Part shown: positions 1,567 through 22,633 of the stretch, piece after piece | Layout of the letters: every line of letters starts with the position of its first letter | Position numbering within the stretch: position 1 is the first letter of the stretch | Source: a virus | Reading direction: 5' to 3' (one strand) | Virus record (IMG/VR): IMGVR_UViG_3300044467_000165 | Coordinates: 1 to 46,538 of that record | Length of the DNA stretch: 46,538 bases | Notes under the pieces: model-generated | The model's database searches: none | What the model saw: the letters and a program-made list of their open reading frames with translations, nothing else | Told to the model about the DNA's origin: nothing | Position numbers and translations under genes: made by a program

Positions 1567-1591
1567 GGTTATTTGACCCTGAAGTGAGGGA

Positions 1592-1607
1592 GCCATGCGC
1601 GCATGGC
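1592..1607. promoter_or_regulatory. 16-bp perfect palindrome upstream of the Cas12-like gene
   Basis: The sequence GCCATGCGCGCATGGC is a perfect inverted repeat in the 49-nt gap between the coiled-coil gene (stop 1616-1618) and the ATG at 1566. It could be an operator or an RNA hairpin in the leader of the Cas12-like gene. There is no T-run, so it is not an intrinsic terminator. Function is unproven. Confidence 0.5.
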
Positions 1608-1615
1608 CTCGTTGA

Positions 1616-1855
1616 TCACGCCGCTTTCGTTTTTGCCTTGGGGGCTTTCGCCGGAATCTCCTCGACGGCTGATTGCTTGATCCAGTCGATGGCCTGCCGA
1701 TACTCGGCCATATCGACTTTGAACTGCGCCTTATTTTGGCGCGTGAGGTCGCCGATTGAGGCATGCTCCGTCTGCAGGCGCTGATAGTCCCTTTCTAGCG
1801 TCTCGATGGCGCGTTTCAGGCCGCGCCGTGTACGCACGTTGTTCTTGATCGTCAT
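1616..1855 (-). CDS. small coiled-coil protein next to the Cas12-like gene
   Basis: 79 residues. The start at 1855 is preceded by a purine-rich GGAAAGGGAAAGAGCC leader. Residues about 8-60 form heptad-rich helix (TLERDYQRLQTEHASIGDL...), and the C-terminal tail is Lys/Ala/Pro-rich. No enzyme motif. It sits directly upstream of the Cas12-like gene in the same direction, so the two are probably co-transcribed. Whether it is a partner of the effector or only a neighbour cannot be told from sequence. I do not recognise a family. Confidence 0.7.
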   Translation of the reverse strand: MTIKNNVRTRRGLKRAIETLERDYQRLQTEHASIGDLTRQNKAQFKVDMAEYRQAIDWIKQSAVEEIPAKAPKAKTKAA

Positions 1856-1884
1856 TGGCTCTTTCCCTTTCCTTGCACTGCCGC

Positions 1885-2268
1885 TCACTCAATCAGTCTC
1901 CACTGGCTCCATTCGGAGCGGTTCGCTTTCACGCGGACATTGCCGCCGCACAATGATTCGCAAGTTTGACCGGTTGCGGCACATTCGCGCAATACGGCCC
2001 AGGCATCCCCGCCACCAAACACGGTATCCGGGTCATGGAATTCCGCAGCGGGGAGCGCTTCCACGGGCAACGCCAGAAACCGCTTCGCAGTGCTTGCCGA
2101 AGCGCTCACGGCAGGCCCGAATCCGCGAATCCCGTGCTGGTCCAGCCAGCGCGAGGTCGAATCATGGTTGCCCGTGAAGACTGCCCGACCGCCGGGTGCG
2201 TTAACGCGGCACGCCTCGCCCGTGACGTGCGCCTCATAGCCTTCGGTGAGTTTGATTTGGTAACTCAT
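1885..2268 (-). CDS. hypothetical phage protein, 127 aa
   Basis: Start at 2268 chosen because its ATG overlaps the stop of the HTH gene upstream (ATGA arrangement), the usual linkage in this operon; the frame stays open further upstream but inside that gene. The protein begins MSYQIKLTEGYEAHV and looks soluble and mixed alpha/beta, with three cysteines near the C-terminus (TGQTCESLCGG). No domain recognised. It is translationally coupled between an XRE-like protein and the coiled-coil/Cas12-like pair. Confidence 0.75.
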   Translation of the reverse strand: MSYQIKLTEGYEAHVTGEACRVNAPGGRAVFTGNHDSTSRWLDQHGIRGFGPAVSASASTAKRFLALPVEALPAAEFHDPDTVFGGGDAWAVLRECAATGQTCESLCGGNVRVKANRSEWSQWRLIE

Positions 2269-2504
2269 GTGTCCTCTTTCGGGAGTTGCTGATGCCACTG
2301 CGCGCGCGCAAGCGCATCGCAGGTGATTCGGGTGAGAAGCCACAACTGTGGCGTGACAGGATGTCGGCCGCGCTCGTATTTCTTGACGCGGTCAACGGTG
2401 GTCATGAGGAGTCGTGCAAGCTGCGCCTGGGAAAGTCCCGCGCGCGTGCGCAGCTCCCGGAATTCATCCGGTGTCGGGACAATGGGCTCCAGCGTGAAGG
2501 TCAC
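2265..2504 (-). CDS. XRE/Cro-type helix-turn-helix protein
   Basis: 79 residues from a GTG start at 2504 that overlaps the previous stop (GTGA). Residues about 14-45 (FRELRTRAGLSQAQLARLL followed by TTVDRVKKYERGRH) match the classic HTH of the XRE/lambda-Cro fold: helix 2 LSQAQLARLL, turn, recognition helix TVDRVKKYE. Probable DNA-binding regulator of this operon or of the host. The stop overlaps the start of the 127-aa gene. Confidence 0.8.
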   Translation of the reverse strand: MTFTLEPIVPTPDEFRELRTRAGLSQAQLARLLMTTVDRVKKYERGRHPVTPQLWLLTRITCDALARAQWHQQLPKEDT

Positions 2505-2686
2505 GTGGAACGTTCCGGTTCATCGGGCTTGTAGGCCTTGAACGCGGCCCATGCATCGGCCGGAATCGCTGAACCTGCGCGGCGCAACCATTCCGCGCGC
2601 TCGCGCTCGGTGAGTCTGTTCCACCATGTCATGCCAAGAGCCGCATCATTGACCGACCCGTTTCCGCTGTGACGAGTGTCGCTCAT
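2501..2686 (-). CDS. hypothetical protein, 61 aa
   Basis: Begins MSDTRHSGNG at 2686. Its ATG overlaps the stop of the preceding small gene (ATGA) and its stop overlaps the GTG of the HTH gene. Tryptophan-rich helical core (MTWWNRLTERERAEWLRRAG), then AAFKAYKP. No family recognised. Tight coupling on both sides supports it as a real gene. Confidence 0.65.
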   Translation of the reverse strand: MSDTRHSGNGSVNDAALGMTWWNRLTERERAEWLRRAGSAIPADAWAAFKAYKPDEPERST

Positions 2687-2853
2687 CGCCGCATGTCGTC
2701 GCGCGCAGCTTGGATTCGGGTGTGGCACTCTAAGATGACTGCTTCTAGCAGCTCAACCCACTGAGATAATGGCATTGGTGGCGCGCCCTCGCGGTCGATC
2801 ACTTCCATGATCCGTTGCGAGCTGTCTTCTACTCCAATGACTGGGCGGTTCAT
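2683..2853 (-). CDS. hypothetical protein, 56 aa
   Basis: A short frame starting MNRPVIGVED and ending at 2683 with an ATGA overlap into the next gene; its own ATG overlaps the stop of the gene upstream. It has a helical middle (PLSQWVELLEAVILECHTRIQ). No function recognised. Supported by overlaps on both ends and natural amino-acid composition. Confidence 0.6.
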   Translation of the reverse strand: MNRPVIGVEDSSQRIMEVIDREGAPPMPLSQWVELLEAVILECHTRIQAARDDMRR

Positions 2854-3008
2854 GACAGCGCCACCTCGATCTGACGGAATTCCTTCGCGAGTGCTTGCAC
2901 TTCGTCGTGGTCAAGCTGGTCGCCAGTGGTCCACCCCATCGCGGCCTGTTCGGTGAGAATTGCTTCGCGGCGGGCGTATAGCGCGCCGATTTCCTGGGAT
3001 GTGATCAT
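2850..3008 (-). CDS. hypothetical helical protein, 52 aa
   Basis: Start at 3008 (MITSQEIGAL) chosen because of a good leader GAGGTGAAAGC 5' of the ATG. The frame is also open to an ATG at 3083 (77 aa) that overlaps the previous stop. The leader and first codons closely match those of the gene starting at 3573 (GAGGTGAAAGCATGA, then ACATCCCA after a 2-nt difference), suggesting duplicated 5' ends. Mostly one long charged helix (EVQALAKEFRQIEVALS). Confidence 0.65.
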   Translation of the reverse strand: MITSQEIGALYARREAILTEQAAMGWTTGDQLDHDEVQALAKEFRQIEVALS

Positions 3009-3079
3009 GCTTTCACCTCGTAGTCGCGTGTAATCGGCATTCCGGAGCGTTCGTGGCGCGCTGTTTTCTTGTCTGGTGC

Positions 3080-3783: not shown

Positions 3784-3835
3784 TGTGGTGGCGATCAATC
3801 GTGCGCCCCATGTGGGGGCGCACTGGTGAGCGTCA
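3784..3835 (-). repeat. inter-gene hairpin element E1
   Basis: Read on the minus strand: constant 5' flank (TGACGCTCACCAG), variable stem GTGCGCCCC/GGGGCGCAC with a 5-nt loop, constant 3' flank (GATTGATCGCCACCACA). The family consensus is TGACGCTCAACAG, then 8-9 bp stem, then CGATTGAACGCCACCACA. TCAA/TTGA of the two flanks pair as a lower stem. In E1 the upstream gene stops at 3915 rather than in the element. Confidence 0.9.
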
Positions 3836-3914
3836 ACCAAGGCGCGCAAGCTCAACGCGGGCACGTTGTCTTAACCACTCCGAAGGGGCCTTGCGAGAAG
3901 CCCCGACCGGCTGG
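3836..3914 (-). other. possible gene relic with hairpin
   Basis: 79 nt between the stop of the 118-aa gene and E1. In one frame it reads protein-like for about 28 codons (ending SEWLRQRARVELARLG) and stops exactly at the element's TGA, as intact genes here do, but it has no start codon. It also holds a 7-bp hairpin (GGGGCTT/AGGCCCC). Probably the 3' remnant of a deleted gene. Confidence 0.35.
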
Positions 3915-4271
3915 CTACTCTAGCTTTACCGCAGGCAGGTCGGCGATGCAGCCATCGATGCAGTCAACGCATCCGGCAGCGGTGCCAACTCGACGGATGG
4001 CGTCCGGGATGCTCTCGTCTGCCGTGAGCAAAGCCCCCGCACGTCGTCCATGCTCGTTCTGCCAATTGCTGCCATAGATCGCATACACGATAGCGCGGCC
4101 GTCCTCGTGCTGGCGCACGCGGATCGACCATGTGCGATTGGCTTGATGTTCGTGCTGACCACCGTCATGGGTCTTAGCCGAGGCGATCAGCGGCCACTGA
4201 TCATCGCGGATTTTCACGGGCGCCCTATCGGTCAGTATGATGGTGCAAGTCTTGGTTTCGGTGGTCGTCAT
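3915..4271 (-). CDS. hypothetical protein, 118 aa
   Basis: Start at 4271 (MTTTETKTCT) chosen for the AGG 9 nt upstream. An earlier ATG at 4280, and another near 4310 behind GAGGGCTGT, are possible. Body looks like a small beta-rich phage protein (TWSIRVRQHEDGRAIVYAIYGSNWQ), and the C-terminus contains CVDCIDGC. Stops with TAG. No family named. Confidence 0.65.
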   Translation of the reverse strand: MTTTETKTCTIILTDRAPVKIRDDQWPLIASAKTHDGGQHEHQANRTWSIRVRQHEDGRAIVYAIYGSNWQNEHGRRAGALLTADESIPDAIRRVGTAAGCVDCIDGCIADLPAVKLE

Positions 4272-4331
4272 GGTTGTCATCCTGTAATCGGTGCTGGAAT
4301 TTGTACCCTTATTCTTCATACAGCCCTCGTC

Positions 4332-4408
4332 TGTGGTGAGCGTCACGCCCTTTTCGCCGGCACGGGGTCCTTCTATGGCACGCAGTGCGTGCCATCTGTT
4401 GAGCGTCA
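4332..4408 (-). repeat. inter-gene hairpin element E2 (rearranged copy)
   Basis: The 5' half is canonical: its TGA is the stop codon of the upstream gene, and the stem GATGGCACGC/GCGTGCCAT is intact. The 3' flank is replaced by about 40 nt with a GC-rich hairpin ending GTGACGCTCACCACAG. It looks like a chimera of two elements. Confidence 0.75.
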
Positions 4409-4678
4409 TCGTGCATAAGGCTTGTCTAGCCATTGGCCTAGCGGCCATGTCTGGCCCGTGGTGTAGCAAATGGCCTGATGCGTTCCCATGAGGGCGGTGT
4501 GCTTTTCCTCCCCAGGGAAAAGCGTGTTTTCATACCATTCCGCGTCGCTGCGGAACTGCGGCGCGTAATACCCAGAGCGGGACCGCTCACGTGACCATGA
4601 CGGCACATGTTCCATTGTGAAACGGTGCACGTATTGCGCGCACGCTTCGGCTAGTGTCGGCCGTTTTTCTTTTGCCAT
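4406..4678 (-). CDS. hypothetical protein, 90 aa
   Basis: Start at 4678 (MAKEKRPTLA) fixed by the leader GAGGGTCAAGACAATG, also found before the genes at 6823 and 7121. Aromatic- and His-rich, soluble. The stop TGA is the first codon of element E2. No family recognised. Confidence 0.7.
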   Translation of the reverse strand: MAKEKRPTLAEACAQYVHRFTMEHVPSWSRERSRSGYYAPQFRSDAEWYENTLFPGEEKHTALMGTHQAICYTTGQTWPLGQWLDKPYAR

Positions 4679-4694
4679 TGTCTTGACCCTCATG

Positions 4695-4745
4695 TGTGGT
4701 GGCGTTCAATCGGATGTCCTGATGTGGGCGCCCTGTTGAATGTCA
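4695..4745 (-). repeat. inter-gene hairpin element E3 (weak stem)
   Basis: Both flanks are conserved (TGACATTCAACAG and CGATTGAACGCCACCACA), but the upper stem GGGCGCCC/GGACATCC has two mismatches. The upstream gene stops 12 nt before the element's TGA, in the same frame, as if an earlier stop had arisen. Confidence 0.8.
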
Positions 4746-4757
4746 CTCCATTGCGGG

Positions 4758-5060
4758 TCATTCATGACGGCGCCCCCTGTACGTATGCTCCGGCGCGACG
4801 AATATCCATTCAATTGCGGACCACACCGCGAAGTAACACGGGCGCCCCTGGTAGGTCCCCTTGCGATAGGCCACGTGATAGTCGCGTTGCAGGTGAAGCC
4901 CAGGCTCACCGCCGACTGAATAACCACGCGCCCGCGCCCATACTTGCCAGTCGCAACGTCTTTTGAACGTCGCGATAGACACGGCGCGCGCCGTGTCTAT
5001 CATCGCTGTGATCGACTCCCCGTCAGAGTTAACGCAGCACGTCAGATACTGGAATTTCAT
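4758..5060 (-). CDS. hypothetical protein, 100 aa
   Basis: Begins MKFQYLTCCV at 5060 directly after element E4. Mixed alpha/beta sequence with many aromatics near the C-terminus (YFAVWSAIEWIFVAPE). It stops at 4758 in the frame whose next TGA is the element E3 stop, so the last five codons may have been lost by mutation. No family recognised. Confidence 0.7.
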   Translation of the reverse strand: MKFQYLTCCVNSDGESITAMIDTARAVSIATFKRRCDWQVWARARGYSVGGEPGLHLQRDYHVAYRKGTYQGRPCYFAVWSAIEWIFVAPEHTYRGRRHE

Positions 5061-5073
5061 TGCCTTGGCCCTA

Positions 5074-5124
5074 TGTGGTGGCGATCAATCGATGGCCCGC
5101 GCACGGGCCATCTGTTGAGCGTCA
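5074..5124 (-). repeat. inter-gene hairpin element E4
   Basis: Canonical copy. Its TGA is the stop of the 57-aa gene (5122-5124). Stem GATGGCCCG/CGGGCCATC with loop TGCG; 3' flank GATTGATCGCCACCACA. Confidence 0.9.
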
Positions 5125-5295
5125 ACCAGCCTGCCGCTGCAAGAGCGCGGGCACAGACGGGACGGCACCGCACATCTTTGCGTAGCGAATCCATGCCGCC
5201 ATGACGGCTGCGTGATTGTCCAGTGGGTTGACTCCCTCACGTGCGGCTATTTTCATCGCAATGCGAACCGGGACGAGTGCGTGCTTTTGGCTCAT
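5122..5295 (-). CDS. hypothetical protein, 57 aa
   Basis: Start at 5295 (MSQKHALVPV) has AAGGA 8 nt upstream. Helical (RIAMKIAAREGVNPLDNHAAVMAAW). Stop is shared with element E4. No family recognised. Confidence 0.65.
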   Translation of the reverse strand: MSQKHALVPVRIAMKIAAREGVNPLDNHAAVMAAWIRYAKMCGAVPSVPALLQRQAG

Positions 5296-5311
5296 ACGTG
5301 CATTCCTTTGA

Positions 5312-5362
5312 GTGGTGGCGTTCAATCGTGCGCCCCCGCATGGGGCGCACTGGTGAATGTCA
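5312..5362 (-). repeat. inter-gene hairpin element E5
   Basis: Canonical copy with the same upper stem as E1 (GTGCGCCCC/GGGGCGCAC) but a different loop. Its TGA (5360-5362) is the stop of the 114-aa gene. Confidence 0.9.
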
Positions 5363-5704
5363 CGGCTTGATAAGACCGAGCATCGCCTCAGACAAATTGC
5401 CGTCGTCAGTGAAGACGCGAAACTCTTCCATGTCTTTGGATGAGATGCAAAGCGGCCACGGTTCTCGGCTATTCATCGGCCGGCGAAGGTAGTAGAGCTT
5501 TTCGTGAATGCGCAGCTCCACATTGAGCACGGTAAGCGTGCCGTCGTCGCTGTCCTGCGCAATCTCGAATGCGTCGCCGTCATGCGCAATTTCCACACAT
5601 CGGAAGCGCTCCGTTTCAATCCACAGGCGGCCCATGCATTTTAGCAGGTTGCCTTCGTTGAATAGATCGCGCGGGATCACGCGTAAATAGTTCGGCTCAT
5701 TCAT
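5360..5704 (-). CDS. hypothetical protein, 114 aa
   Basis: Start at 5704 (MNEPNYLRVI) because the ATG overlaps the stop of the gene upstream (ATGA). Here there is no hairpin between the two genes. Beta-rich pattern (CVEIAHDGDAFEIAQDSDDG...). Ends in the TGA of element E5. No family recognised. Confidence 0.7.
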   Translation of the reverse strand: MNEPNYLRVIPRDLFNEGNLLKCMGRLWIETERFRCVEIAHDGDAFEIAQDSDDGTLTVLNVELRIHEKLYYLRRPMNSREPWPLCISSKDMEEFRVFTDDGNLSEAMLGLIKP

Positions 5705-5910
5705 GACTGCGCCTCTAATTCGTGGAACGTTTGGCCGTGCACGCTGCGGTCTTTCCCTTTGTTTTCCGCCTCGCATCGGCGCTTGGCTTCGTCATATGAA
5801 AGGCCGCGCACTACCGTGCGTTTCGGGGCGCCGCCATACGGCTCCCAGCCCTGCGGATAAGCAGGGTTGCGCTTCCACGGTCGGCCCGTGAATACGCGAT
5901 ACTTCGTCAT
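5701..5910 (-). CDS. hypothetical protein, 69 aa
   Basis: Begins MTKYRVFTGR at 5910 with GAGGG 7 nt upstream, immediately after element E6. Basic, with YDEAKRRCEAENKGK helix. Overlaps the next gene by ATGA. Function unknown. Confidence 0.7.
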   Translation of the reverse strand: MTKYRVFTGRPWKRNPAYPQGWEPYGGAPKRTVVRGLSYDEAKRRCEAENKGKDRSVHGQTFHELEAQS

Positions 5911-5925
5911 GCTGTGACCCTCTTC

Positions 5926-5976
5926 TGTGGTGGCGTTCAATCGTGCGGCCTATCAAGGCCGCACTGTTGAGCGTCA
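5926..5976 (-). repeat. inter-gene hairpin element E6
   Basis: Canonical flanks with a distinct stem, GTGCGGCCT/AGGCCGCAC, loop TGAT. The upstream gene ends with TAG 4 nt before the element's TGA. Confidence 0.9.
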
Positions 5977-5980
5977 CGGA

Positions 5981-6154
5981 CTAGAAGCGCGCGCCGCTGG
6001 CGTTAAGGCGAGCAAGGTGCGCGAAGTACATTCCAGACTGGAGATGCGGGAATTTTTCATAGTCGCGCACTGGCGGACGCGGACAATTCATTTCGACGTC
6101 AATCACGCACCCTTCAGTGCGGCAAATGGCTGCCCATATTTGCAATCCCATCAT
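5981..6154 (-). CDS. hypothetical protein, 57 aa
   Basis: Begins MMGLQIWAAI behind AGGGGGACTGCATC, between elements E6 and E7, and ends TAG. Composition is natural (VIDVEMNCPRPPVRDYEKFP). The position, filling exactly the space between two elements, supports it. No family recognised. Confidence 0.65.
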   Translation of the reverse strand: MMGLQIWAAICRTEGCVIDVEMNCPRPPVRDYEKFPHLQSGMYFAHLARLNASGARF

Positions 6155-6172
6155 GATGCAGTCCCCCTGTTA

Positions 6173-6223
6173 TGTGGTGGCTCTCAATCGATGGCCCGTG
6201 CTCGGGCCATCTGGTGAGTGTCA
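6173..6223 (-). repeat. inter-gene hairpin element E7
   Basis: Stem GATGGCCCG/CGGGCCATC with loop AGCA; 3' flank is the variant GATTGAGAGCCACCACA. Its TGA is the stop of the 200-aa gene. Confidence 0.9.
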
Positions 6224-6823
6224 TCCTGCGAAGTGGTCGCCGTTCGCCTTGAATTCGTACTCGTTCGCGATGCAGTTTTCCGCTACGACATCGTCTGAAT
6301 TCTCGTAGGCGTAAGACGATTCAAGCTGTCTGTAGTACCAATCCATGAGTGCGCGCGCACTCTGGGCGAGGCTTCCCAGTAGATCGTCGCGAAGGTCTGC
6401 CGTTTCAAAACGCGTCGCCATGCTGTGCGAATAGCGTCCCGTTCCCCGCACGCTTGCGGACGTGTCGGGCATCAGCTCGCCGGCCAGTTCAACGTGCTCG
6501 GCCATGATCCGCGCGAGCGTTGCGTTGCGTTCACCTGCGCCCGCTGGTGCATGCTGTTCTAATGCTGCCGGGTCGCGAACATCCCCCGCGCGCCATGAGC
6601 CGTGAAACTGCGCGCCGTCGCCTTGTGAGCTGAAGCCCGAAAAAGCGGTGCCTGTAATCGTCCAGCCCATAAAGGCGGCAATCGTCTTGAGGTCTTCGGT
6701 TACATGCTCGGACCATGATTCATGCGAATCCTGGCCGCTGCGCCACCATTCGCGGGCGCGGGTTTTCGCCGCTTCAGATAGCTCGGAATACTGGTAAACC
6801 TTGATTGTGATATCACGTGCCAT
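6221..6823 (-). CDS. conserved phage protein, 200 aa
   Basis: Start at 6823 fixed by the GAGGGTCAAGACAATG leader. The N-terminus (IKVYQYSELSEAAKTRAREWWRSG) matches a widespread phage family that opens with a Tyr-rich strand followed by an ELSExAKxRAxxWW helix; its function is unknown to me. C-terminal helical segment with MDWYYRQLESSYAYE. It is the largest gene of the hairpin-separated cluster. Confidence 0.8.
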   Translation of the reverse strand: MARDITIKVYQYSELSEAAKTRAREWWRSGQDSHESWSEHVTEDLKTIAAFMGWTITGTAFSGFSSQGDGAQFHGSWRAGDVRDPAALEQHAPAGAGERNATLARIMAEHVELAGELMPDTSASVRGTGRYSHSMATRFETADLRDDLLGSLAQSARALMDWYYRQLESSYAYENSDDVVAENCIANEYEFKANGDHFAG

Positions 6824-6836
6824 TGTCTTGACCCTC

Positions 6837-6887
6837 TGTGGTGGCTCTCAATCGATGGCCCGTGCTCGGGCCATCTGTTGAGCGTCA
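6837..6887 (-). repeat. inter-gene hairpin element E8
   Basis: Same stem and variant 3' flank as E7 (GATTGAGAGCCACCACA). Its TGA (6885-6887) is the stop of the 78-aa gene. E7 and E8 flank the 200-aa gene on both sides as near-identical direct repeats. Confidence 0.9.
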
Positions 6888-7121
6888 CACGTTTGCGTGG
6901 CAGCCCTCGCGCAACATAACTTCACCTTCATCATCGACCACAAGCCCGCATAGCTGCGCATCCGCGATGGCATGTTCGCGCCACGCATACAGCGTGGCGT
7001 CCGCGACGTGAAGACGAATGAGCGCGTCGCCAAACGTGAAGGCATAGCGCTGATTGGTGGGGAGATACTGCAAGCGCATGCGCGCAACGGTGGGCGCTTG
7101 CCTGTATGTCGGAAGTGGCAT
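6885..7121 (-). CDS. hypothetical protein, 78 aa
   Basis: Start at 7121 (MPLPTYRQAP) with the leader GAGGATCAAGACAATG, nearly the same as at 4678 and 6823. Beta/alpha mix (YAFTFGDALIRLHVADATLYAWREH), acidic C-terminal part (GLVVDDEGEVMLREG). Unknown function. Confidence 0.7.
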   Translation of the reverse strand: MPLPTYRQAPTVARMRLQYLPTNQRYAFTFGDALIRLHVADATLYAWREHAIADAQLCGLVVDDEGEVMLREGCHANV

Positions 7122-7135
7122 TGTCTTGATCCTCA

Positions 7136-7183
7136 TGTGGCGTTCAATCGAGCACCCGTGAACGGATGCTCTGTTGAGCGTCA
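7136..7183 (-). repeat. inter-gene hairpin element E9
   Basis: Slightly shorter copy that lacks one TGG/CCA of the 3' flank. Stem GAGCATCCG/CGGGTGCTC has one mismatch. Its TGA is the stop of the 63-aa gene. Confidence 0.85.
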
Positions 7184-7372
7184 CAAACGAAACTGGCGCA
7201 CGAGCTGGCGGTCATTTTCGTGATACTGCAGCATGGAGCGTAACCATGCGTGGCGAGCCGCGCGCATCGCGCGCGTGCGCCCCTTGCGAGAAAGCATGCG
7301 ATGTGCGGCTCGGATCACGGCGCGCGGTGAAGCGGTCACCCGCACGCATAAGCGTAGATATTGCGCATACAT
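7181..7372 (-). CDS. hypothetical Arg-rich protein, 63 aa
   Basis: Begins MYAQYLRLCV at 7372 behind AGGAAACAGACCA. Very basic (RKGRTRAMRAARHAWLRS), so it may bind nucleic acid. Bounded by elements E9 and E10. Confidence 0.65.
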   Translation of the reverse strand: MYAQYLRLCVRVTASPRAVIRAAHRMLSRKGRTRAMRAARHAWLRSMLQYHENDRQLVRQFRL

Positions 7373-7384
7373 TGGTCTGTTTCC

Positions 7385-7435
7385 TGTGGTGGCGTTCAAT
7401 TGGTGGGCCGTGAGCGGCCCACCTGTTGACAGTCA
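7385..7435 (-). repeat. inter-gene hairpin element E10
   Basis: Stem GGTGGGCCG/CGGCCCACC; 5' flank variant TGACAGTCAACAG. Its TGA is the stop of the 68-aa gene. Confidence 0.9.
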
Positions 7436-7639
7436 CTCATCTTTTTGAGCCTTAATCGCGTAGCAACTCATTCCGTGTGCAATGGCCGCGCGTTCCGCGT
7501 TGCGGCGTGTCTTGAATCCGTGCGGCGTGTCGCCAATAGCTTCGGGCGAGAGGTAGTTCAAGCCGGGGCGCGCAAGATACCGGCCAGCATAGGCAAGCTC
7601 ACTGTCAGCATCGTAGCGGACAACATAAGTGCGAGGCAT
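7433..7639 (-). CDS. hypothetical protein, 68 aa
   Basis: Begins MPRTYVVRYD at 7639 with an AGGGAACACTAT leader, right after the half element E11. The segment DTPHGFKTRRNAERAAIAHG suggests a small nucleic-acid-binding or modification-type fold, but no family is named. Because E11 lost its stop, the frame is also open from the gene upstream. Confidence 0.7.
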   Translation of the reverse strand: MPRTYVVRYDADSELAYAGRYLARPGLNYLSPEAIGDTPHGFKTRRNAERAAIAHGMSCYAIKAQKDE

Positions 7640-7870
7640 ATAGTGTTCCCTGTGGTGGCGTTCAATCGATGGCCCGTGACCGGTGCGCGCGGAGTTATGG
7701 GCGCGGATATCCACGCGCGTGCCGGCCGGAACGATGGCCTCGACAGGTTCAAGGTTCTCATGCGCCTGCAGGCAATCCGGGCACGTCACGCAGTTAATGT
7801 CAGGATCGGACGCGCCTTGACGTCCGCACTCATTGCCGCCGCGCGTTTTGAGCAAGTGAATCTTCGGCAT
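7433..7870 (-). CDS. fused frame: Cys-rich protein read into the next gene
   Basis: From ATG 7870 (MPKIHLLKTR, leader GGGGAACTGAAC) the frame runs without a stop through element E11 into the 68-aa gene, giving 145 residues. The first ~60 residues carry CGRQG...CVTCPDC (possible zinc ribbon). The linker is translated element sequence (GPSIERHHREH). Inferred: deletion of the 5' half of E11 removed the original stop. Both products may be made, since the internal start at 7639 keeps its RBS. Confidence 0.6.
   Translation of the reverse strand: MPKIHLLKTRGGNECGRQGASDPDINCVTCPDCLQAHENLEPVEAIVPAGTRVDIRAHNSARTGHGPSIERHHREHYMPRTYVVRYDADSELAYAGRYLARPGLNYLSPEAIGDTPHGFKTRRNAERAAIAHGMSCYAIKAQKDE
7651..7685 (-). 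repeat. inter-gene hairpin element E11 (half deleted)
   Basis: Only the 3' half remains (ACGGGCCATC, then the CGATTGAACGCCACCACA flank). The expected 5' flank with its TGA and the first stem arm are absent. This is the only truncated copy. Confidence 0.85.
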
Positions 7871-7885
7871 GTTCAGTTCCCCTAT

Positions 7886-7935
7886 CGTGGTGGCGTTCAA
7901 TCGATGGCACTGGCCGTGCCATCTGTTGAGCGTCA
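7886..7935 (-). repeat. inter-gene hairpin element E12
   Basis: Stem GATGGCAC/GTGCCATC with loop GGCCA. The preceding gene stops with TAG one base before the element. This is the first copy in transcription order. Confidence 0.9.
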
Positions 7936-7936
7936 A

Positions 7937-8209
7937 CTAGAATTGCGAACGGTGAAGTTCGGCTAGCTCCCGCTCGTATGCGTCCGGATCGTCCGGCAGC
8001 TCATAGCGCGGATCGTCGCCAGCGGCGCGGTCGGACGCGTCCTCTGCTATGCCTTCGAGACCTGCCTCGAAACCATCCGACCAGACTTCGGATGCTTCCG
8101 AGCCCTCCGGGTGAGGGTTCGTGTCGAGTGACTCGCCCGCGTGAGCCGCTGCGATGCCTGTCTCGCTGATCGCCTCGCGAGCGGCATCGGTGAGAGGGGA
8201 AGTAGTCAT
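7937..8209 (-). CDS. hypothetical acidic protein, 90 aa; first gene of the leftward operon
   Basis: Begins MTTSPLTDAA at 8209 with AAAGGA 6 nt upstream. Strongly acidic in the second half (DRAAGDDPRYELPDDPDAYE). Being promoter-proximal in the leftward operon and acidic, it could be an early protein that binds a host factor; that is a guess. No family recognised. Confidence 0.7.
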   Translation of the reverse strand: MTTSPLTDAAREAISETGIAAAHAGESLDTNPHPEGSEASEVWSDGFEAGLEGIAEDASDRAAGDDPRYELPDDPDAYERELAELHRSQF

Positions 8210-8296
8210 GAGCGTCCTTTCAGGTGATGGGGGCGGCACGCCCCCTGCCTGAAAAGAAGCATGAACTGTGCCATGTGAGGCAAGCTCATGATTCAT

Positions 8297-8387
8297 CAGA
8301 CATCAGTGAATATGTCTGGTGAGAAAATGTATACATTTCCGTCACTAAGTGACGTGGTACGTGACGCTCACCGTCACGCTGAGCGTC
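8297..8387. promoter_or_regulatory. divergent control region with four inverted repeats
   Basis: Between the leftward operon (start 8209) and the rightward gene at 8426 lie four successive dyads: CAGACAT/ATGTCTG (8297-8318), the perfect 14-bp palindrome AAATGTATACATTT (8325-8338), GTCACT-A-AGTGAC (8341-8353) and GACGCTCA/TGAGCGTC (8363-8387). AT-rich hexamers inside could be -10 boxes. It resembles a phage early-promoter/operator switch. The last dyad also belongs to the CGCTNAGCG site family. Confidence 0.65.
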
Positions 8388-8425
8388 TTTCACTCTTATC
8401 TATGTGTTCGGGAGACTAGCAAGGT

Positions 8426-8926
8426 ATGGGAAGGCAGGGGAGTAAGCCGGGAGAGCGCAGAGGGGGGCGCAAGCTCGGGACACCGAATGTGCTCCCCGAT
8501 CTTCGAGCGATCACGCTCAAGGCTCTGATGCAAGCCGGAGGGGTCGAGTATCTGGCGCAACAAGCCGTCGCCAACCCCGGCCCGTTCTTAGGTCTTTTGG
8601 GTCGCGTCATGCCACGAGAGGCGCACATCGAGATGAGCGGTGAGCTGAGAGTGCGCCAAGAGGTGCGACGCGATCTGGTCGAGAAGTTCATCGCCCTGAT
8701 GCAGCTACCGGCCAGCAACGATGCGAGCATGCAAACCCTAGCGCTCCCCGCCCTTACGCATAACCCGGATACCCTACTCAAAGGTCAAGTGATCGCCGAC
8801 CGTGAAGGCTTGAGTAGACGCGCACAGAACGCAAGACGCGAGAGTGCAGGAACGATAGCAGGCGCCGTACAACGCGCAGCGGCTATGCAGATGGAACAGG
8901 AGGAGAACGACAGCGAGGCCGCATGA
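8426..8926 (+). CDS. putative small terminase-like protein
   Basis: 166 residues from ATG 8426. N-terminal RRGGRKLGTPN, then a helical segment (LKALMQAGGVEYLAQQAVANPGPFLGLLGRVMP) matches a phage protein type that I associate with small terminases or DNA-packaging proteins, with charged C-terminal helix. It is the first rightward gene after the control region, but about 9.6 kb from the large terminase, which is unusual for TerS. Could instead be another GRKxGTPN-type phage protein. Confidence 0.5.
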   Translation: MGRQGSKPGERRGGRKLGTPNVLPDLRAITLKALMQAGGVEYLAQQAVANPGPFLGLLGRVMPREAHIEMSGELRVRQEVRRDLVEKFIALMQLPASNDASMQTLALPALTHNPDTLLKGQVIADREGLSRRAQNARRESAGTIAGAVQRAAAMQMEQEENDSEAA

Positions 8927-9096
8927 AGCGAGCGGCAAGCATGGAACTGCAGTGGATCAAGGAGCGCGCGTCAAGCGCGCAGACAGGAGACAGACGCGCT
9001 ACAGCGCGGGAGGCTGACAGAGAATCGGAAAGAGGAGCGGGAGGCAGCGCACGGGCATCGCTCTTTCACGCACGCACAGGCATGCGGAATGCGTAG
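8923..9096 (+). CDS. hypothetical basic protein, 57 aa
   Basis: Begins MKRAASMELQ. The ATG overlaps the stop of the TerS-like gene (ATGA) and the frame ends TAG. Arg/Ala/Ser-rich, no motif. The coupling supports it, the biased composition weakens it. Confidence 0.4.
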   Translation: MKRAASMELQWIKERASSAQTGDRRATAREADRESERGAGGSARASLFHARTGMRNA

Positions 9097-9530
9097 TGTG
9101 GGAGCCTCAGGACGGGATGAATATGTAATATGCCTGTCCCTAAGGGGGAGATGCGCATACATGCAAGCCCATGATTAGCATGGAGATTGTGGAGCGCATA
9201 GCCACGGCCAGCCACGAGCGCGTCGCAACATCACATAATCCCTGCGACATAATGTAGGGTCCCTTGACATAACGCGTCCGGACTTACCATAACGCGTCGG
9301 CGACCCCCACAACCCGCGCCAGCGGAAGGCCGGGGTGCCGGTACCGGTGCATCCCCCCCGTCACATACATCCTGTTTCCCCCATTTTCACATTTCATTTT
9401 TCCCCGAGACGCTCAGCGCTATGCCCAGCGCTTTATCGCTCAGCGTCACGCTCAGCGTTAGAGTCTCTGATACTCACCCCGTGGAGAAAGGTCATTTTCG
9501 GGTCCCATCCGGTTCCTGGCCGGTTGCGTT
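9097..9530. other. gene-poor convergent region
   Basis: No convincing gene. It lies between converging units. It holds two short direct repeats (CATAACGCGTC near 9270 and 9290), a TTGACA at about 9264 followed after 18 nt by CATAAC (possible weak promoter), a CCGGTACCGG palindrome near 9338, a pyrimidine-rich stretch at 9350-9405 and a cluster of CGCTCAGCG sites. Confidence 0.5.
9406..9466. promoter_or_regulatory. cluster of CGCTCAGCG sites
   Basis: Three copies of the 9-mer CGCTCAGCG at 9410, 9437 and 9449. The last two are separated by TCA, i.e. 12 bp start to start, as at 13327. An AGCGCT/AGCGCT hairpin followed by TTTAT lies between them, and GAGAC/GTCTC flank the cluster. Could be regulator sites or a weak bidirectional terminator. 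Confidence 0.5.
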
Positions 9531-9752
9531 CTATGCCTTCGATGGGGACACCACTCCTGCGCCCTGGATCGGCACATCCCCCTGTGTGGGGAAGCCGGGC
9601 CACGGTGAGGTAAGCGGTTCGCAGTGAGCCTTGCGCCAGCACGTGTTCGGGCACCGGTGATGACAGGTACCGCCGTCATGGGGACACCGTTGATCGAGGG
9701 GCTTATGGTTCACCGAGGGTCTCATCGTTCGGGTCTTTGAGGTGGTTTTCAT
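9531..9752 (-). CDS. Cys/His-rich small phage protein
   Basis: 73 residues. The start at 9752 overlaps the previous stop (ATGA). Core CPHDGGTCHHRCPN followed by TCWRKAHCEPL matches a small Cys-rich protein type common in phages, probably zinc-binding. Last gene of the leftward unit that starts near 13.3 kb. Confidence 0.75.
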   Translation of the reverse strand: MKTTSKTRTMRPSVNHKPLDQRCPHDGGTCHHRCPNTCWRKAHCEPLTSPWPGFPTQGDVPIQGAGVVSPSKA

Positions 9753-9955
9753 GGGTGCTCGCTCCACGTATGGGCGCCGTGATGGGGGCAGTTACCCCAG
9801 CGCAGGACGCCGGGGACGCACTCGCAGGTTTGAGTCGGTGCGGGCGCGGGCGGCTTTCGGGGCGCGTGTTCGGCGCAAGTCTTGCCGCATCGTGCGCACT
9901 CGTCCTCGCCCGCCCGGAAGAGGGTGAACCGATGAAGCAGCGGCGCATCGTTCAT
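9749..9955 (-). CDS. zinc-finger-like protein, 68 aa
   Basis: Begins MNDAPLLHRF at 9955. CARCGKTCAEH, then CECVPGV...CPHHGAH give several Cys/His ligand pairs, so a small metal-binding fold is likely. Stop overlaps the next start. No strong RBS is visible. Confidence 0.65.
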   Translation of the reverse strand: MNDAPLLHRFTLFRAGEDECARCGKTCAEHAPRKPPAPAPTQTCECVPGVLRWGNCPHHGAHTWSEHP

Positions 9956-9971
9956 CGACTTCGCCTTCGGG

Positions 9972-10229
9972 TCATCCCAGCGGCCACTGAGTTCGCAAGG
10001 GTCTATCCCCGGCGTAGAGGTCGCGACGTTGCAGCCGTCTCCTGGGCTCGGGCTCGGGTGGTGGCATGAGGTTTGGATGAACCTTCACGAGCACTGGGGC
10101 GTTGGGCGCTACGGGCTTGAATAGTCCAAGTCCGGCGCGCAGTCGCTGATTCTCTTCAATGAGTTTGATGTTGTGCTCGCGGGTGAGCGCAAGGGCTGTC
10201 TTCAGTCGCTCGATCTCGGTGTTGTTCAC
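9972..10229 (-). CDS. coiled-coil protein, 85 aa
   Basis: GTG start at 10229 overlapping the previous stop (GTGA). Residues 1-35 form a leucine-zipper-like helix (IERLKTALALTREHNIKLIEENQRL); the rest is Pro/Arg-rich. Likely a small dimeric protein; function unknown. Confidence 0.6.
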   Translation of the reverse strand: MNNTEIERLKTALALTREHNIKLIEENQRLRAGLGLFKPVAPNAPVLVKVHPNLMPPPEPEPRRRLQRRDLYAGDRPLRTQWPLG

Positions 10230-10672
10230 GCTGCCCCGCTCGCCTCGGCGAACCGCTGCATGACCGCCTGTCCCATACGCAGGTCTTCGGGTTTGCGGGA
10301 GTTGTGGACGGTCACTTCGACGAAGGCTTTTCGTTCGGCGTAAGTGGTTTGGGTGTTCCAGATTCGGTTGATGGCGATCATGACGGGAGAATCGGGCGGC
10401 ATGAGCTGCCCTGTTTTCAGATCGATCAGGGCCGGGCGGCAGCCCGGACAGTGATCGCAGAAGTCATGGTTTTCCAGCATTTCGTTTTCCCCGAATGACG
10501 CACGGTTCCTGCGAATCCATCGTGCTCTGGCGAGTTTCATTAGGACGAAGAGCAAGGTCACTAGGAGGTCCAGGAGAAACACCGGCGTCATGATGAAGTC
10601 CCAGCCCAGGTGATGGCGGTTTTTCCATCGCTCCCAGCGTAATCGCTGGCTTACGCGTGCGTTCATGAGCAT
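10226..10672 (-). CDS. membrane protein with CxxCxGC motif
   Basis: 148 residues (or from ATG 10666). A single strong transmembrane helix at about residues 27-46 (MTPVFLLDLLVTLLFVLMKL) follows a basic N-terminus; then a short CDHCPGC metal-binding motif and a soluble C-terminal part. Probably an inner-membrane phage accessory protein. No closer call. Confidence 0.7.
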   Translation of the reverse strand: MLMNARVSQRLRWERWKNRHHLGWDFIMTPVFLLDLLVTLLFVLMKLARARWIRRNRASFGENEMLENHDFCDHCPGCRPALIDLKTGQLMPPDSPVMIAINRIWNTQTTYAERKAFVEVTVHNSRKPEDLRMGQAVMQRFAEASGAA

Positions 10673-10682
10673 CGGGATTCGC

Positions 10683-11021
10683 TCATGGGAGTTTCACGCA
10701 TCGATAGCGGACTTCGCGTGCAGCCTTCGCGTAGGTAGGTTGCAGGCCCAGTTCGATGGTCTCTCCGATCTCAAGGTGCTGGATGAGTTCAGCGTTCTGC
10801 AGTTCGGCTTCGTCAATGATCCGGCCTATGCCTTGTTCTATGTCGAGGCCCCCGCGCAGGCGGCTGATCGTGGCGTGTTCGGGGAACACTTGGGTGACGT
10901 AGACCTCGCGTGTGCCTTGGCTGATGTCGGTGAAGGTGGCAGGAGGCATGCCGAATCGCTGGACCGCCAGGGTTTTCCAGGCGCCGTTGAGTTTCCCTTC
11001 AAAGAGGAGTGCGGTGGGCAT
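10683..11021 (-). CDS. hypothetical protein, 112 aa
   Basis: Begins MPTALLFEGK at 11021 with AAAGG upstream at a long spacing. Soluble mixed fold (VYVTQVFPEHATISRLRGG). Ends just before the membrane-protein gene. No family recognised. Confidence 0.7.
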   Translation of the reverse strand: MPTALLFEGKLNGAWKTLAVQRFGMPPATFTDISQGTREVYVTQVFPEHATISRLRGGLDIEQGIGRIIDEAELQNAELIQHLEIGETIELGLQPTYAKAAREVRYRCVKLP

Positions 11022-11047
11022 GGCGGACGCCTTTCAGTTGGAATAAA

Positions 11048-11056
11048 CGCTCAGCG
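11048..11056. promoter_or_regulatory. single CGCTCAGCG site at a gene end
   Basis: The 9-mer CGCTCAGCG spans the stop codon of the 64-aa gene, 27 nt before the next start. It matches the recurring site at 9410, 9437, 9449, 13327, 13339 and 17840. Confidence 0.4.
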
Positions 11057-11245
11057 TCCAGGGAGTTTCTCTCCGACCTGAATCGAACAGGTCTTAGTCT
11101 TCTTGTCGAAGTGAAGCATGAAGAAGCGGTCGCCCACGAGGCGCCACGCAGCACGTTCGCACTCTTCCCGGTGTTCGTACTGGCGCGTGTAGAAGGGCTC
11201 ACCCAGTGAGTTCCAGGACACATGCCACAGGAGCGCGAGTTCCAT
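11051..11245 (-). CDS. hypothetical protein, 64 aa
   Basis: Begins MELALLWHVS. The ATG overlaps the previous stop as TAATG. Aromatic-rich, with FYTRQYEHREECERAAWRLVGDRFFML. No motif recognised. The stop lies inside a CGCTCAGCG site. Confidence 0.65.
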   Translation of the reverse strand: MELALLWHVSWNSLGEPFYTRQYEHREECERAAWRLVGDRFFMLHFDKKTKTCSIQVGEKLPGR

Positions 11246-11493
11246 TACGTGCTTCCCCCTGACTCATCGGTGAAGCCGATGGGGCCAAAGCCTTCGAGCG
11301 TCACGATATAGGTCTGATCCCACCCGATGCGGGTGTCAGGTTCCATGAAGTAGGGCTTTATTTCGAGGTTCTCAAAGGGCAGCGGCAACTCGTGCGAACG
11401 GTAAAGATGCTCAACGAGCGCGGCTCGATTCGGCAGTTCGACACACGTCGCCATCGAGTCGTGCAAGCCCCCGCGATGTTCTCTGAATTTCAT
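11245..11493 (-). CDS. hypothetical protein, 82 aa
   Basis: Begins MKFREHRGGL at 11493 with a strong GGAGG 4 nt upstream; the ATG overlaps the previous stop (ATGA). Soluble, C-terminal half acidic. No family recognised. Confidence 0.7.
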   Translation of the reverse strand: MKFREHRGGLHDSMATCVELPNRAALVEHLYRSHELPLPFENLEIKPYFMEPDTRIGWDQTYIVTLEGFGPIGFTDESGGST

Positions 11494-11810
11494 ACGACCT
11501 CCGGCGACGCACCATCCCCCTCATGCGGGCGGTACTGCCAGCCGCGTGTGACGAGCCGCAGGGCCTCGGTGGCTTTGCCTTCCTTTACGAGCACGGTGAC
11601 GGTGTTCAGTTCTTCGGTGGTGGCGTAGGCCACGATCACATCGCGCAGGGTCAGCCAGTGCCACGGCTCCCCGAGCGCGCGCGTGATGTCCCCTGAGACG
11701 ATCTCTGCCGGGTCATAGTGCCTGATTCGCTCGATGTTTTCATCGCTCAGGACCACCACGACGCTGTAGTGCAGTGGCCTCACCTGGAACGGGATCGTGA
11801 AGAGGCTCAC
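11490..11810 (-). CDS. hypothetical protein, 106 aa
   Basis: GTG start at 11810 chosen because it overlaps the stop of the amber-interrupted gene (GTGA); a GTG at 11831 is also possible. N-terminal hydrophobic strand (LHYSVVVVLSDENIERIRHYD), then alpha/beta. Function unknown. Confidence 0.65.
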   Translation of the reverse strand: MSLFTIPFQVRPLHYSVVVVLSDENIERIRHYDPAEIVSGDITRALGEPWHWLTLRDVIVAYATTEELNTVTVLVKEGKATEALRLVTRGWQYRPHEGDGASPEVV

Positions 11811-12088
11811 GGCTGGAGCGCAAGTTTCCACTCAACAACGAACACGGCATTTCGCTTGCGGTCGTCCCATTCCACGAAGTAGACGCAGCAGGGAAGTTGC
11901 GGATCGCAGAGTGAGCCCAGGATGGTGCCGGTCATGCCGATAGGGGTTGCATCGCCTTTCTCACTCTGGGCTTTTTGAATCCGTGTGCCGTTGGGATATC
12001 GAGCCTCGGCTGCCTAGTCGCGTGTAAACGCGCCGTACCAACCCGGCTCATGTTGGATATTGAACGGGTGCTCGCGCAGTTCGGTCAT
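11807..12088 (-). pseudogene. conserved phage protein interrupted by in-frame amber codon
   Basis: From ATG 12088 (overlapping the stop of the gene upstream) the frame reads 24 codons, hits TAG, and continues in the same frame for 68 more codons to TGA 11807. The second part (ARYPNGTRIQKAQSEKGD, then GMTGTILGSLCD, YFVEWDD, FVVEWKL) resembles a recurrent phage family with a TGTVxGS / YFVEWD pattern. A restart at ATG 11935 would give 42 residues. TAG is a normal stop elsewhere in this phage (e.g. 7937, 13662, 20060, 34035), so general recoding is unlikely. Confidence 0.65.
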
Positions 12089-16705: not shown

Positions 16706-16782
16706 TTGTACTCATGCTCCTGGGCTTGCTCGTGGGCCATATCGCTTTTCGCGTGTATCACCGGAAACGGAAGATTTGGTGA
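16699..16782 (+). CDS. tiny transmembrane peptide, 27 aa
   Basis: GTG at 16699 overlaps the end of the 61-aa gene; an ATG lies at 16714. Reads VVVVLMLLGLLVGHIAFRVY, then HRKRKIW: one transmembrane helix with a basic cytoplasmic tail. Overlaps the next start (GTGA). Confidence 0.5.
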   Translation: MVVVLMLLGLLVGHIAFRVYHRKRKIW

Positions 16783-17072
16783 AGATGATTCAGTTGCGTC
16801 CCCATCTGGATGACTTCGAGGGCTCTACTCGGCGCGTTGTCTATCTCACCAACGGGGATGCTGATGACGTGCTCGCTTACATTCGTTCTCACTTCCCGCA
16901 GTGGCGCCCGGACCTGAGATACCTCATGCAAATCCATTGCGGCATCGATAAGCGCAATGGATGGGATACCTGGGTCATCAAGCTCCGTAATCACCCGGTT
17001 GTGTGGACGGATGGTCCGGTCGCCGGGGTGCCGAGGCTTGAGGTTGTCGGGTCTTCACCCAATCGTTCGTGA
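16779..17072 (+). CDS. hypothetical protein, 97 aa
   Basis: GTG at 16779 overlapping the previous stop (ATG alternative at 16785). Alpha/beta sequence (RRVVYLTNGDADDVLAYIRS, HFPQWRPDLRYLM, WVIKLRNHPVVW). No family recognised. Ends before the structured noncoding segment at 17116. Confidence 0.65.
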   Translation: MKMIQLRPHLDDFEGSTRRVVYLTNGDADDVLAYIRSHFPQWRPDLRYLMQIHCGIDKRNGWDTWVIKLRNHPVVWTDGPVAGVPRLEVVGSSPNRS

Positions 17073-17115: not shown

Positions 17116-17213
17116 GCCCGCAGACCCGTTGATGTGCCACCAGTGCCACATCGGCGGGAGCGAGAGGGCATAGCAGGAAAATAGCCCCTCTCGTTCACGC
17201 CGGGTCTGCGGGC
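17116..17213. ncRNA. candidate structured RNA, three-way junction
   Basis: Outer arms GCCCGCAGACCCG (17116-17128) and CGGGTCTGCGGGC (17201-17213) pair perfectly over 13 bp. Inside are a hairpin GATGTG/CACATC (17131-17152) and a hairpin CGAGAGGG/CCCTCTCG (17161-17193), which can extend by CGGCG/CGCCG. No T-run on either strand, so not a simple terminator. It lies between convergent genes. Strand and function unknown. Loop contains GCCACCAGTGCCA, repeated at 18.46 kb. Confidence 0.55.
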
Positions 17214-17241: not shown

Positions 17242-17265
17242 AAAAATCCACACATGGAGTGTGGA
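17242..17265 (-). terminator. intrinsic terminator of leftward unit
   Basis: On the minus strand TCCACAC, loop TCCAT, GTGTGGA, then TTTTT. Lies 14 nt downstream of the stop of the 113-aa gene that ends at 17279. Confidence 0.75.
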
Positions 17266-17820: not shown

Positions 17821-17839
17821 GGGGAGAGTTTGCCATAAA

Positions 17840-17870
17840 CGCTGAGCGTACGGCCAGCGAGCGCTCAGCG
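17840..17870. promoter_or_regulatory. pair of CGCTNAGCG sites
   Basis: CGCTGAGCG (17840-17848) and CGCTCAGCG (17862-17870) with a degenerate CGGCCAGCG between them, 11 bp apart each. Located between the leftward start at 17820 and the rightward relic at 17877. Confidence 0.5.
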
Positions 17871-17876
17871 TCTTTA

Positions 17877-20071: not shown

Positions 20072-22633
20072 ATGGCTGATGAAACTATGGGTGCGTCCCC
20101 CGACGCGCCGACGATGCCGGCTGCCCGTGAAGAACCTGTCGATACTGATGATGGTGGCGCCATTGTCACGATGGCGCAGGGACGGGAGGTTGAAGAAGAG
20201 GAAGAGTTCTATCGCAACATCGCTGATGACCTCGACCAGAATGAGCTTGATGCGTTGTGTGTCGAGCTGCTGCAGAAGATCGACTACGACAAAGAATCCC
20301 GCAAGAAGCGTGATAAGCAATATGAAGAAGGGCTGAAGCGCACGGGACTCGGGGACGACGCTCCCGGAGGCGCAGGCTTTCAGGGCGCCTCGAAGGTGGT
20401 GCATCCCATGCTCACCGAGGCATGCGTGGACTTCTCCTCCCGCGCGATCCGTGAACTGTTTCCCGCCGAAGGCCCGGCGCGCGATTACATTCCCGGTGAA
20501 CCGACCAAAGCGCGCGTTCTCAAGGCCAAACGCAAAACCAAATACCTCAATTGGCAGTGCAAAGTGCAGATGCAGGAGTTCCGCTCGGAACTGGAGCAGC
20601 TCCTGACGCAAACGCCACTGGCGGGTGTTGGCTACATGCGCATCGTGTATGACGCGCAGAAGAAACGTCCGGTCCCGAGCTTCGTGCCCGTCGATGACGT
20701 GTATCTGCCATACGCGGCGAGCAGCTTCTATACGGCTGAACGTACGACATATGTTGAATACATCACGGAATACGAATACGAGAAGCGTATCGCGGAAGGA
20801 ATGTATCGCGATATCGATGTAACCCCTCCCGGTACGCCTCCGGAGATTACCAAAGCGGAGAAGGCCAACCAGAAGATCGAGGGCAAACAGGAAGAGGTCT
20901 ACAACACCGATGGTCTGCGCACCATGTATGAGGTGATGGCGCACGCCGAACTGGAGGAAGACGAAGACCTAGTGCCGTATCGCATCTCCATTGATCCCAA
21001 CGGCAAGAAGATCACCGCCGTAGTACGCAACTGGGAACAGACGGACGATACGCAGCAACCGATGTTCTGGATGAGCGAGTGGCCCTTCGTTCCGTGGCGC
21101 GGGGCGTATCCGATTGGGCTCACGCACATGATTGGCTCACTCTCGGGAGCCGCCACCGGCAGTTTGCGGGCACTCCTCGATGCGGCCCACATCAGCAACA
21201 TCCCAACGCTGCTCAAGCTAAAGGGGACGAACTTCAGTGGGCAGTCACTGGAGCTGAATGTCACGCAGGTGACCGAGATCGAAGGCGGTATCGCGACTGA
21301 CGACGTGCGAAAATTGTTGATGCCGCTCCCCTTCAATCCGCCATCGGCGACCCTGTTCTCATTGCTCGGCTTCCTTGTTGATGCCGGCAAGGGCGTCATC
21401 CAAACCACCTTCGAGAAGTTCTCCGACAACGCCTCGGCGAACATGCCTGTGGGCACGACGCTCGCCATGATCGAGCAGGGCATGACGGTGTTCAGCGCGA
21501 TCCATGCGCGCCTACACGACGCGATGGCGCGCACGCTCGGCATTCTCCACCGCATCAACCGGATGTATCTCACGGACGATGCCGTACGGGATGAGACCGG
21601 CGAACTGATGGTGAAGCGCTCGGACTTCGAGGGGCCCCTCGATGTCATTCCGGTCAGCGACCCGGAAATCTTCTCCGACATCCAGCGCTTCGCCCAGATG
21701 CAGGTTGTGGCCCAGCGCGCGCAGATGAATCCGCTGTATGACCAGCGCAAAGTTGAGCTGATGATTCTGCAGCAGACGCGCATCCCGGAGGCGGAGAATC
21801 TGCTCGTGCCTGCGCCGACCGCAGAGCCGATGAATGCGGTGAACGAAAATTTGGCAATGACCTTCGGGCGTCCCGTGGCGGCATTCCCCGATCAGGATCA
21901 CCTGGCGCATATTCAGGTCTTGCTCGACTACATGACATCGCCTGTCTTCGGGCAGCTCCCCATCATTGCACCCTCGTATCTGCCGGCCGCACTTCAACAT
22001 CTCACCGAGCACGTGGGCCTGTGGTACGTGAATCACGTGTACGAGTCCCTCTCCGCCGAATTGCGCCAGGACCTCGGCAATCTCATGAAGTTCCGCGATC
22101 CGGAAACACGCAAACAACTGGATGCAACGCTGGCCGCTGCATCGAGCGAGACGGTGGCGGCGGCACAAAAGACATTCTCTTCCCTGCCGGCGGTGATTCA
22201 GCGCGCGCAGCAGATGCTGCAGGCCTTCGGCCCGAGCATCCCTCCCGATCCCAAGGCGGCGGCCACCATCGCGGCGAAGCAGATGGATCAACAGACGGCA
22301 CGCGAGAAGATTCAGGCGCGCACGAACGAAGTGCAGCTGACCCTCGCCGCAGACGCTCAGCGTGATGCTCAGCGCTCACAAGGGGATGCACAGCGGGATG
22401 CCATGAAGCAGCAGCAGGAGGATCGGCGCACGCAAATGATCCAGCAGCAGTTGACGATGCGCGAAGCATCCCAACAGGAGAACGAGACAGAGCGGCAGGA
22501 TTCGGAGATGGCAGCACGTGAACGCATGAACACGGCCGACAATGTCACCGCACTCACCATCGCCGAAGCCGAAACGCTCGCGGACAATAAAGCCGCCGTG
22601 GAAACCGGCACCGGACTAAACCCGAATCCCTAA
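20072..22633 (+). CDS. portal protein (large podovirus type)
   Basis: 853 residues. Position directly after the large terminase and sequence (VVHPMLTEACVDFSSRAIRELFP, later PLARPPSD-like acidic segments, central PFNPPSATLFSLLGFLVDAG) indicate the dodecameric portal at the DNA-packaging vertex. The acidic N-terminus (EVEEEEEF) and the Gln/Arg-rich coiled-coil C-terminus with DAQRDAQR repeats are typical of long portals that reach into the capsid. Length suggests a podovirus with a barrel-like extension. Confidence 0.85.
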   Translation: MADETMGASPDAPTMPAAREEPVDTDDGGAIVTMAQGREVEEEEEFYRNIADDLDQNELDALCVELLQKIDYDKESRKKRDKQYEEGLKRTGLGDDAPGGAGFQGASKVVHPMLTEACVDFSSRAIRELFPAEGPARDYIPGEPTKARVLKAKRKTKYLNWQCKVQMQEFRSELEQLLTQTPLAGVGYMRIVYDAQKKRPVPSFVPVDDVYLPYAASSFYTAERTTYVEYITEYEYEKRIAEGMYRDIDVTPPGTPPEITKAEKANQKIEGKQEEVYNTDGLRTMYEVMAHAELEEDEDLVPYRISIDPNGKKITAVVRNWEQTDDTQQPMFWMSEWPFVPWRGAYPIGLTHMIGSLSGAATGSLRALLDAAHISNIPTLLKLKGTNFSGQSLELNVTQVTEIEGGIATDDVRKLLMPLPFNPPSATLFSLLGFLVDAGKGVIQTTFEKFSDNASANMPVGTTLAMIEQGMTVFSAIHARLHDAMARTLGILHRINRMYLTDDAVRDETGELMVKRSDFEGPLDVIPVSDPEIFSDIQRFAQMQVVAQRAQMNPLYDQRKVELMILQQTRIPEAENLLVPAPTAEPMNAVNENLAMTFGRPVAAFPDQDHLAHIQVLLDYMTSPVFGQLPIIAPSYLPAALQHLTEHVGLWYVNHVYESLSAELRQDLGNLMKFRDPETRKQLDATLAAASSETVAAAQKTFSSLPAVIQRAQQMLQAFGPSIPPDPKAAATIAAKQMDQQTAREKIQARTNEVQLTLAADAQRDAQRSQGDAQRDAMKQQQEDRRTQMIQQQLTMREASQQENETERQDSEMAARERMNTADNVTALTIAEAETLADNKAAVETGTGLNPNP

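Follow-up and report, generated by a model that had tools for sequence, protein, structure and literature searches.

What is the function of a 98-base noncoding segment that folds as a T-shaped three-way junction in the genome of an uncultured phage, and is it read as RNA, and if so from which strand, or as DNA? The phage is represented by a virus record in IMG/VR, whose 46,538 bases are together referred to here as the window. In the element (17116-17213), a perfect 13-bp stem (P1), formed by GCCCGCAGACCCG (17116-17128) and CGGGTCTGCGGGC (17201-17213) with no mismatch, encloses two hairpins (17131-17152 and 17153-17200), with junctions of 0-3 nt. The location is noncoding and lies between convergent ORFs, the plus-strand one ending at 17072 and the minus-strand one at 17279, as the initial annotation had stated. 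The minimum free energy (MFE) of the window element is -62.1 kcal/mol for the plus strand and -61.1 kcal/mol for the minus strand; neither strand is matched in stability by any of 200 dinucleotide shuffles (z-scores of -7.4 and -6.9, respectively). Because about 0.1 perfect 13-bp inverted repeats spanning at most 160 nt are expected by chance per window, the stem by itself is only mildly improbable; it is conservation in two relatives that settles that the three-way junction is real, and with it the stem, paired hairpins, and short junctions first described from the window alone. The features of the locus are as follows.

17116..17213, minus (judged RNA strand): whole three-way-junction element, from folds, covariance model, and P1 pairing
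17201..17213, minus: 5' arm of P1 as read on the minus strand, GCCCGCAGACCCG, near-invariant across three phages
17116..17128, minus: 3' arm of P1 as read on the minus strand, CGGGTCTGCGGGC, from the three-phage alignment
17153..17200, minus: P3 hairpin (long arm), whose stem and length differ among relatives
17131..17152, minus: P2 hairpin, GATGTG..CACATC, ambiguous in G001 and clear in the other two phages
17137..17142, minus: invariant TGGTGG motif (CCACCA on the plus strand), which in the window and G002 falls in the loop region of P2
17219..17232, minus: box GTGCTAGGCTCTAG, a candidate promoter with a -10-like TAGGCT, conserved and also present in element-free copies
17247..17265, minus: intrinsic-terminator-like hairpin with TTTTT, belonging to the upstream minus-strand ORF and standing, in the window, between that ORF and the element
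16776..17072, plus: small conserved protein, its 3' end facing the element, 35-46% identical in relatives

Relatives with the region were found by searches with the large terminase (TerL). Contigs 3300037755_000598 (G001) and 3300005471_000014 (G002), with TerL proteins 85% and 83% identical to that of the window, respectively, carry homologues of the element at 20566-20673 and 61901-61991 (loci L002 and L003), giving a length range of 91-108 nt over the three phages. In all three, the element lies 0.9-1.3 kb upstream of TerL, between the small-protein gene and leftward genes, in convergent arrangement. The intergenic DNA around it is not alignable by BLAST across the phages; within the locus, the P1 arms, TGGTGG, and the flanking box are near-identical, and the P2 and P3 stems are variable.

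A covariance-model search of related phages, proposed as a check in the initial annotation, has three syntenic members on which to build, and it finds no further member either in 79 loci (828 kb) of TerL relatives or in 19 whole records of such relatives, including Caulobacter phage KcrB. Since the relatives scanned, mostly with 46-60% TerL identity, add nothing to the three, the element is confined, as far as seen, to one small clade. Other searches agree on this number: the exact stem pattern has no match in IMG/VR and a looser pattern retrieves just G002 and chance matches, searches with the small protein, TerL, and the zinc protein give no extra element carriers, a TerL scan of prokaryote genomes gives two distant relatives only, BLAST of phages with the element gives no match at E<=5, and no Rfam family scores above the gathering threshold. 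Sequence-unrelated equivalents, sought upstream of TerL in about 60 relatives, are not clearly more frequent there than in coding DNA downstream. We rejected as chance the sole sub-threshold Rfam match (mir-4865, E 4.8) and, from their appearance, two box-plus-arm pattern matches beside G001 and G002 (L034 and L035); two partial plasmid BLAST matches (E=5) are likewise unconvincing.

The initial annotation had read the structure on the plus strand, and the relatives argue for the opposite one. The ninth P1 pair, A-T on the plus strand of the window, becomes an A.C mismatch in both relatives, whereas on the minus strand an A-U pair becomes G.U in both, such that all 39 P1 cells pair over the three minus-strand sequences. 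G001 further contributes one double (compensatory) change in P1, from C-G to U-A on the minus strand. Statistical support from this covariation (one compensatory pair and one wobble) is weak because there are only three sequences, with 164 of 500 column shuffles reaching the same score. Folding energies point the same way: the minus strand folds about 15 kcal/mol better than the plus strand in both relatives (-51.0 vs. -35.9 kcal/mol in G002 and -56.6 vs. -42.0 kcal/mol in G001), with z-scores, computed with slightly different ends, of -4.1 vs. -3.0 and -3.8 vs. -1.6. None of 200 shuffles is as stable as the minus strand of either relative, and the plus strand of G001 is not significant (16/200). 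Against this choice, the window alone folds equally well on both strands, and P2 is unclear in G001. Taken together, these sequence comparisons favor the minus strand as the RNA strand, and the plus strand is probably wrong, an example of how a strand assignment made from a single genome can be corrected once relatives are compared.

On the minus strand, each of the three phages has the box GTGnTAsGCTC(T/C)A immediately ahead of the stem, with 6-10 nt between its TAsGCT hexamer and P1. The exact box occurs five times over the three genomes, against approximately zero expected; three of these copies accompany the element, and the other two are element-free and precede leftward ORFs, the G001 copy standing about 20 nt from a possible ATG (with a start further upstream also possible) and the G002 copy about 170 nt from the ORF. 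The box is thus a module separable from the element and placed at leftward starts, which suggests that it is a promoter and that an RNA would begin at the stem. No -35 hexamer was found at the box and a sigma-70 scan gave no match there, so the putative promoter would need a factor.

The reading that we prefer, and whose chances we put at about even, is that the element is a leftward (minus-strand) structured RNA, either standing alone or forming the leader of a leftward transcript. The course of events that we infer, from promoter activity and transcription to protein binding and a regulatory role, would begin with transcription starting leftward a few bases downstream of the box GTGnTAsGCTCTA, such that the 5' arm of P1 is made first. 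The RNA would then fold into a closing helix of 13-14 bp bearing the two hairpins, and TGGTGG may be read by a protein, possibly RNA polymerase or a factor from the phage or its host. It could work as a stand-alone regulator or, like the put leader of phage HK022, act on the polymerase making the leftward transcript. Points that count against this leftward-RNA reading include the following: its members number only three; no U-run follows the element, leaving the 3' end of a minus-strand RNA without explanation; and the transcript would first cross DNA antisense to two plus-strand genes rather than an operon, with read-through antisense to the small-protein gene.

The likeness to HK022 put RNA, a nascent antiterminator leader, is one of layout and perhaps of position, and a putative role in antitermination is drawn by analogy. 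Like put, the element would be a short two-hairpin phage RNA; put is about 70 nt with two adjacent stem-loops and no long closing helix. HK022 putL follows immediately after an early promoter (PMC9378689), and in all three phages here a promoter-like box lacking a -35 stands 6-10 nt upstream of the element. The prohead or packaging RNA (pRNA) of phi29-type phages is also built on a three-way junction (PMC5340915), but its fold is kept despite little sequence similarity, whereas the P1 sequence here is near-invariant; in addition, pRNA belongs to phi29-like packaging motors, the TerL here is of the T4-like Terminase_6 type (Terminase_6N/6C), and the element has no Rfam match. A more specific proposal, which we consider possible but doubtful, is that the element represents a new phage RNA family, a three-way junction of 91-108 nt with its own phage-specific promoter, recognized via P1 and TGGTGG, that would reprogram RNA polymerase or a phage protein. 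If the element is transcribed, it would represent a phage RNA family not described before, for which the strand, the start site, and a candidate motif for recognition are defined, making its role directly testable.

Alternatively, the locus might be a bidirectional 3'-end element, whose strong GC stem would stop transcription at, or protect, the ends of the plus-strand gene (16776-17072) and of the leftward minus-strand genes, with no separate RNA. We regard this as unlikely, in spite of the convergent position in all three phages, the high stability of the window stem on both strands, and, in G001, a stop codon of the plus-strand gene only about 2 nt from P1. The element shares with intrinsic terminators a GC-rich stem between convergent genes but differs from them in being an enclosed junction, not one hairpin, with conserved arms and loop, and in having no U-run directly after the stem on either strand of the window. 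The minus-strand ORF of the window, moreover, is already followed by a terminator-like hairpin of its own ahead of the element (17265-17247; 0.9 such hits are expected in shuffles); the lack of T-runs in the initial annotation therefore holds for the element itself and not for this adjoining hairpin with its TTTTT. Nor does a terminator need near-invariant arms, TGGTGG, a box, or copies of that box preceding leftward genes. The earlier view that the structure goes beyond a terminator gains support from the two relatives, in which sequence and closing stem are kept and the minus strand shows one compensatory change and one wobble.

It is also rather improbable, in our judgment, that the locus acts as a DNA site for packaging or terminus formation, replication origin, or recombination, recognized by a protein in duplex or cruciform form, with the arms kept as binding sequence. 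Such a site would fit the conservation of the P1 arms in sequence beyond pairing alone and the position 0.9-1.3 kb upstream of TerL, and the strand also folds as DNA; in KcrB, a distant TerL relative, the terminal repeat ends about 0.8 kb upstream of TerL. However, the KcrB terminus, judged by eye, has no such structure, phages whose TerL is 46-60% identical have no copy, and a closed two-hairpin structure upstream of TerL is not general among the roughly 60 relatives. The A/G difference in P1, furthermore, breaks a cruciform pair and leaves G.U on one RNA strand.

The initial annotation had raised a guide-like RNA, possibly linked to a Cas12-like protein. The ORF in question (1-1764, minus; 588 aa), which the end of the contig truncates, is by its sequence matches (E 1.9e-36 to the solved Cas12m 23vw; PADLOC models 3e-80 for Cas12f and 2e-79 for Cas12u1) a true Cas12m/Cas12u1 relative, and G001 has both the element and a diverged homologue (1498-3078, minus). 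A guide, tracr-like, or decoy RNA for this protein is nevertheless highly improbable, since G002 keeps the element with no Cas12m-like gene by BLAST and no left-arm ORF of such size (its contig covers the syntenic left arm, though a piece may be missing), the guide of characterized Cas12m effectors is a single short crRNA, with no tracrRNA involved (PMC11013384), and the element lies 15 kb from the gene in a window in which no tandem CRISPR array was found. What the element shares with the setting of a Cas12m crRNA or TnpB omega RNA is a Cas12m-like gene in the same phage; it differs in having no repeat-spacer array, in its distance from the gene, and in its presence where the gene is undetected, showing how a comparison of relatives can also separate a structure from a tempting neighbor. 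One RuvC motif of the Cas12m-like protein reads GINLGFR, a possible Asp-to-Asn change, and this motif is more degenerate in the G001 copy.

Some further features were observed in these genomes. In a distant relative (locus L087, 3373-3498, minus), an unrelated two-hairpin structure closed by 12 bp lies 2.5 kb upstream of TerL (z about -6). Hairpin repeats of about 48 nt occur in the window (3788-7935, 10-11 copies) and in G001 (5668-11923, 16-18 copies), with invariant ends TGACGCTCAACAG and CGATTGAACGCCA and an inner 8-bp stem that covaries freely. The preceding minus-strand ORF has its stop codon inside the repeat in about 20 of 26 copies, so each gene with its repeat looks like a cassette; the repeat end GTTGAGC fits the integron attC core GTTRRRY, and the other end is not a full fit. 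These repeats and the Cas12m-like gene co-occur in the window and G001, and both are undetected in G002, which retains the element. Finally, recurring intergenic palindromes of the ACGCTCAGCGT type are found in the window at 8341-8400, 9407-9470, 11045, 13330, and 17838-17875, and may be operator sites.
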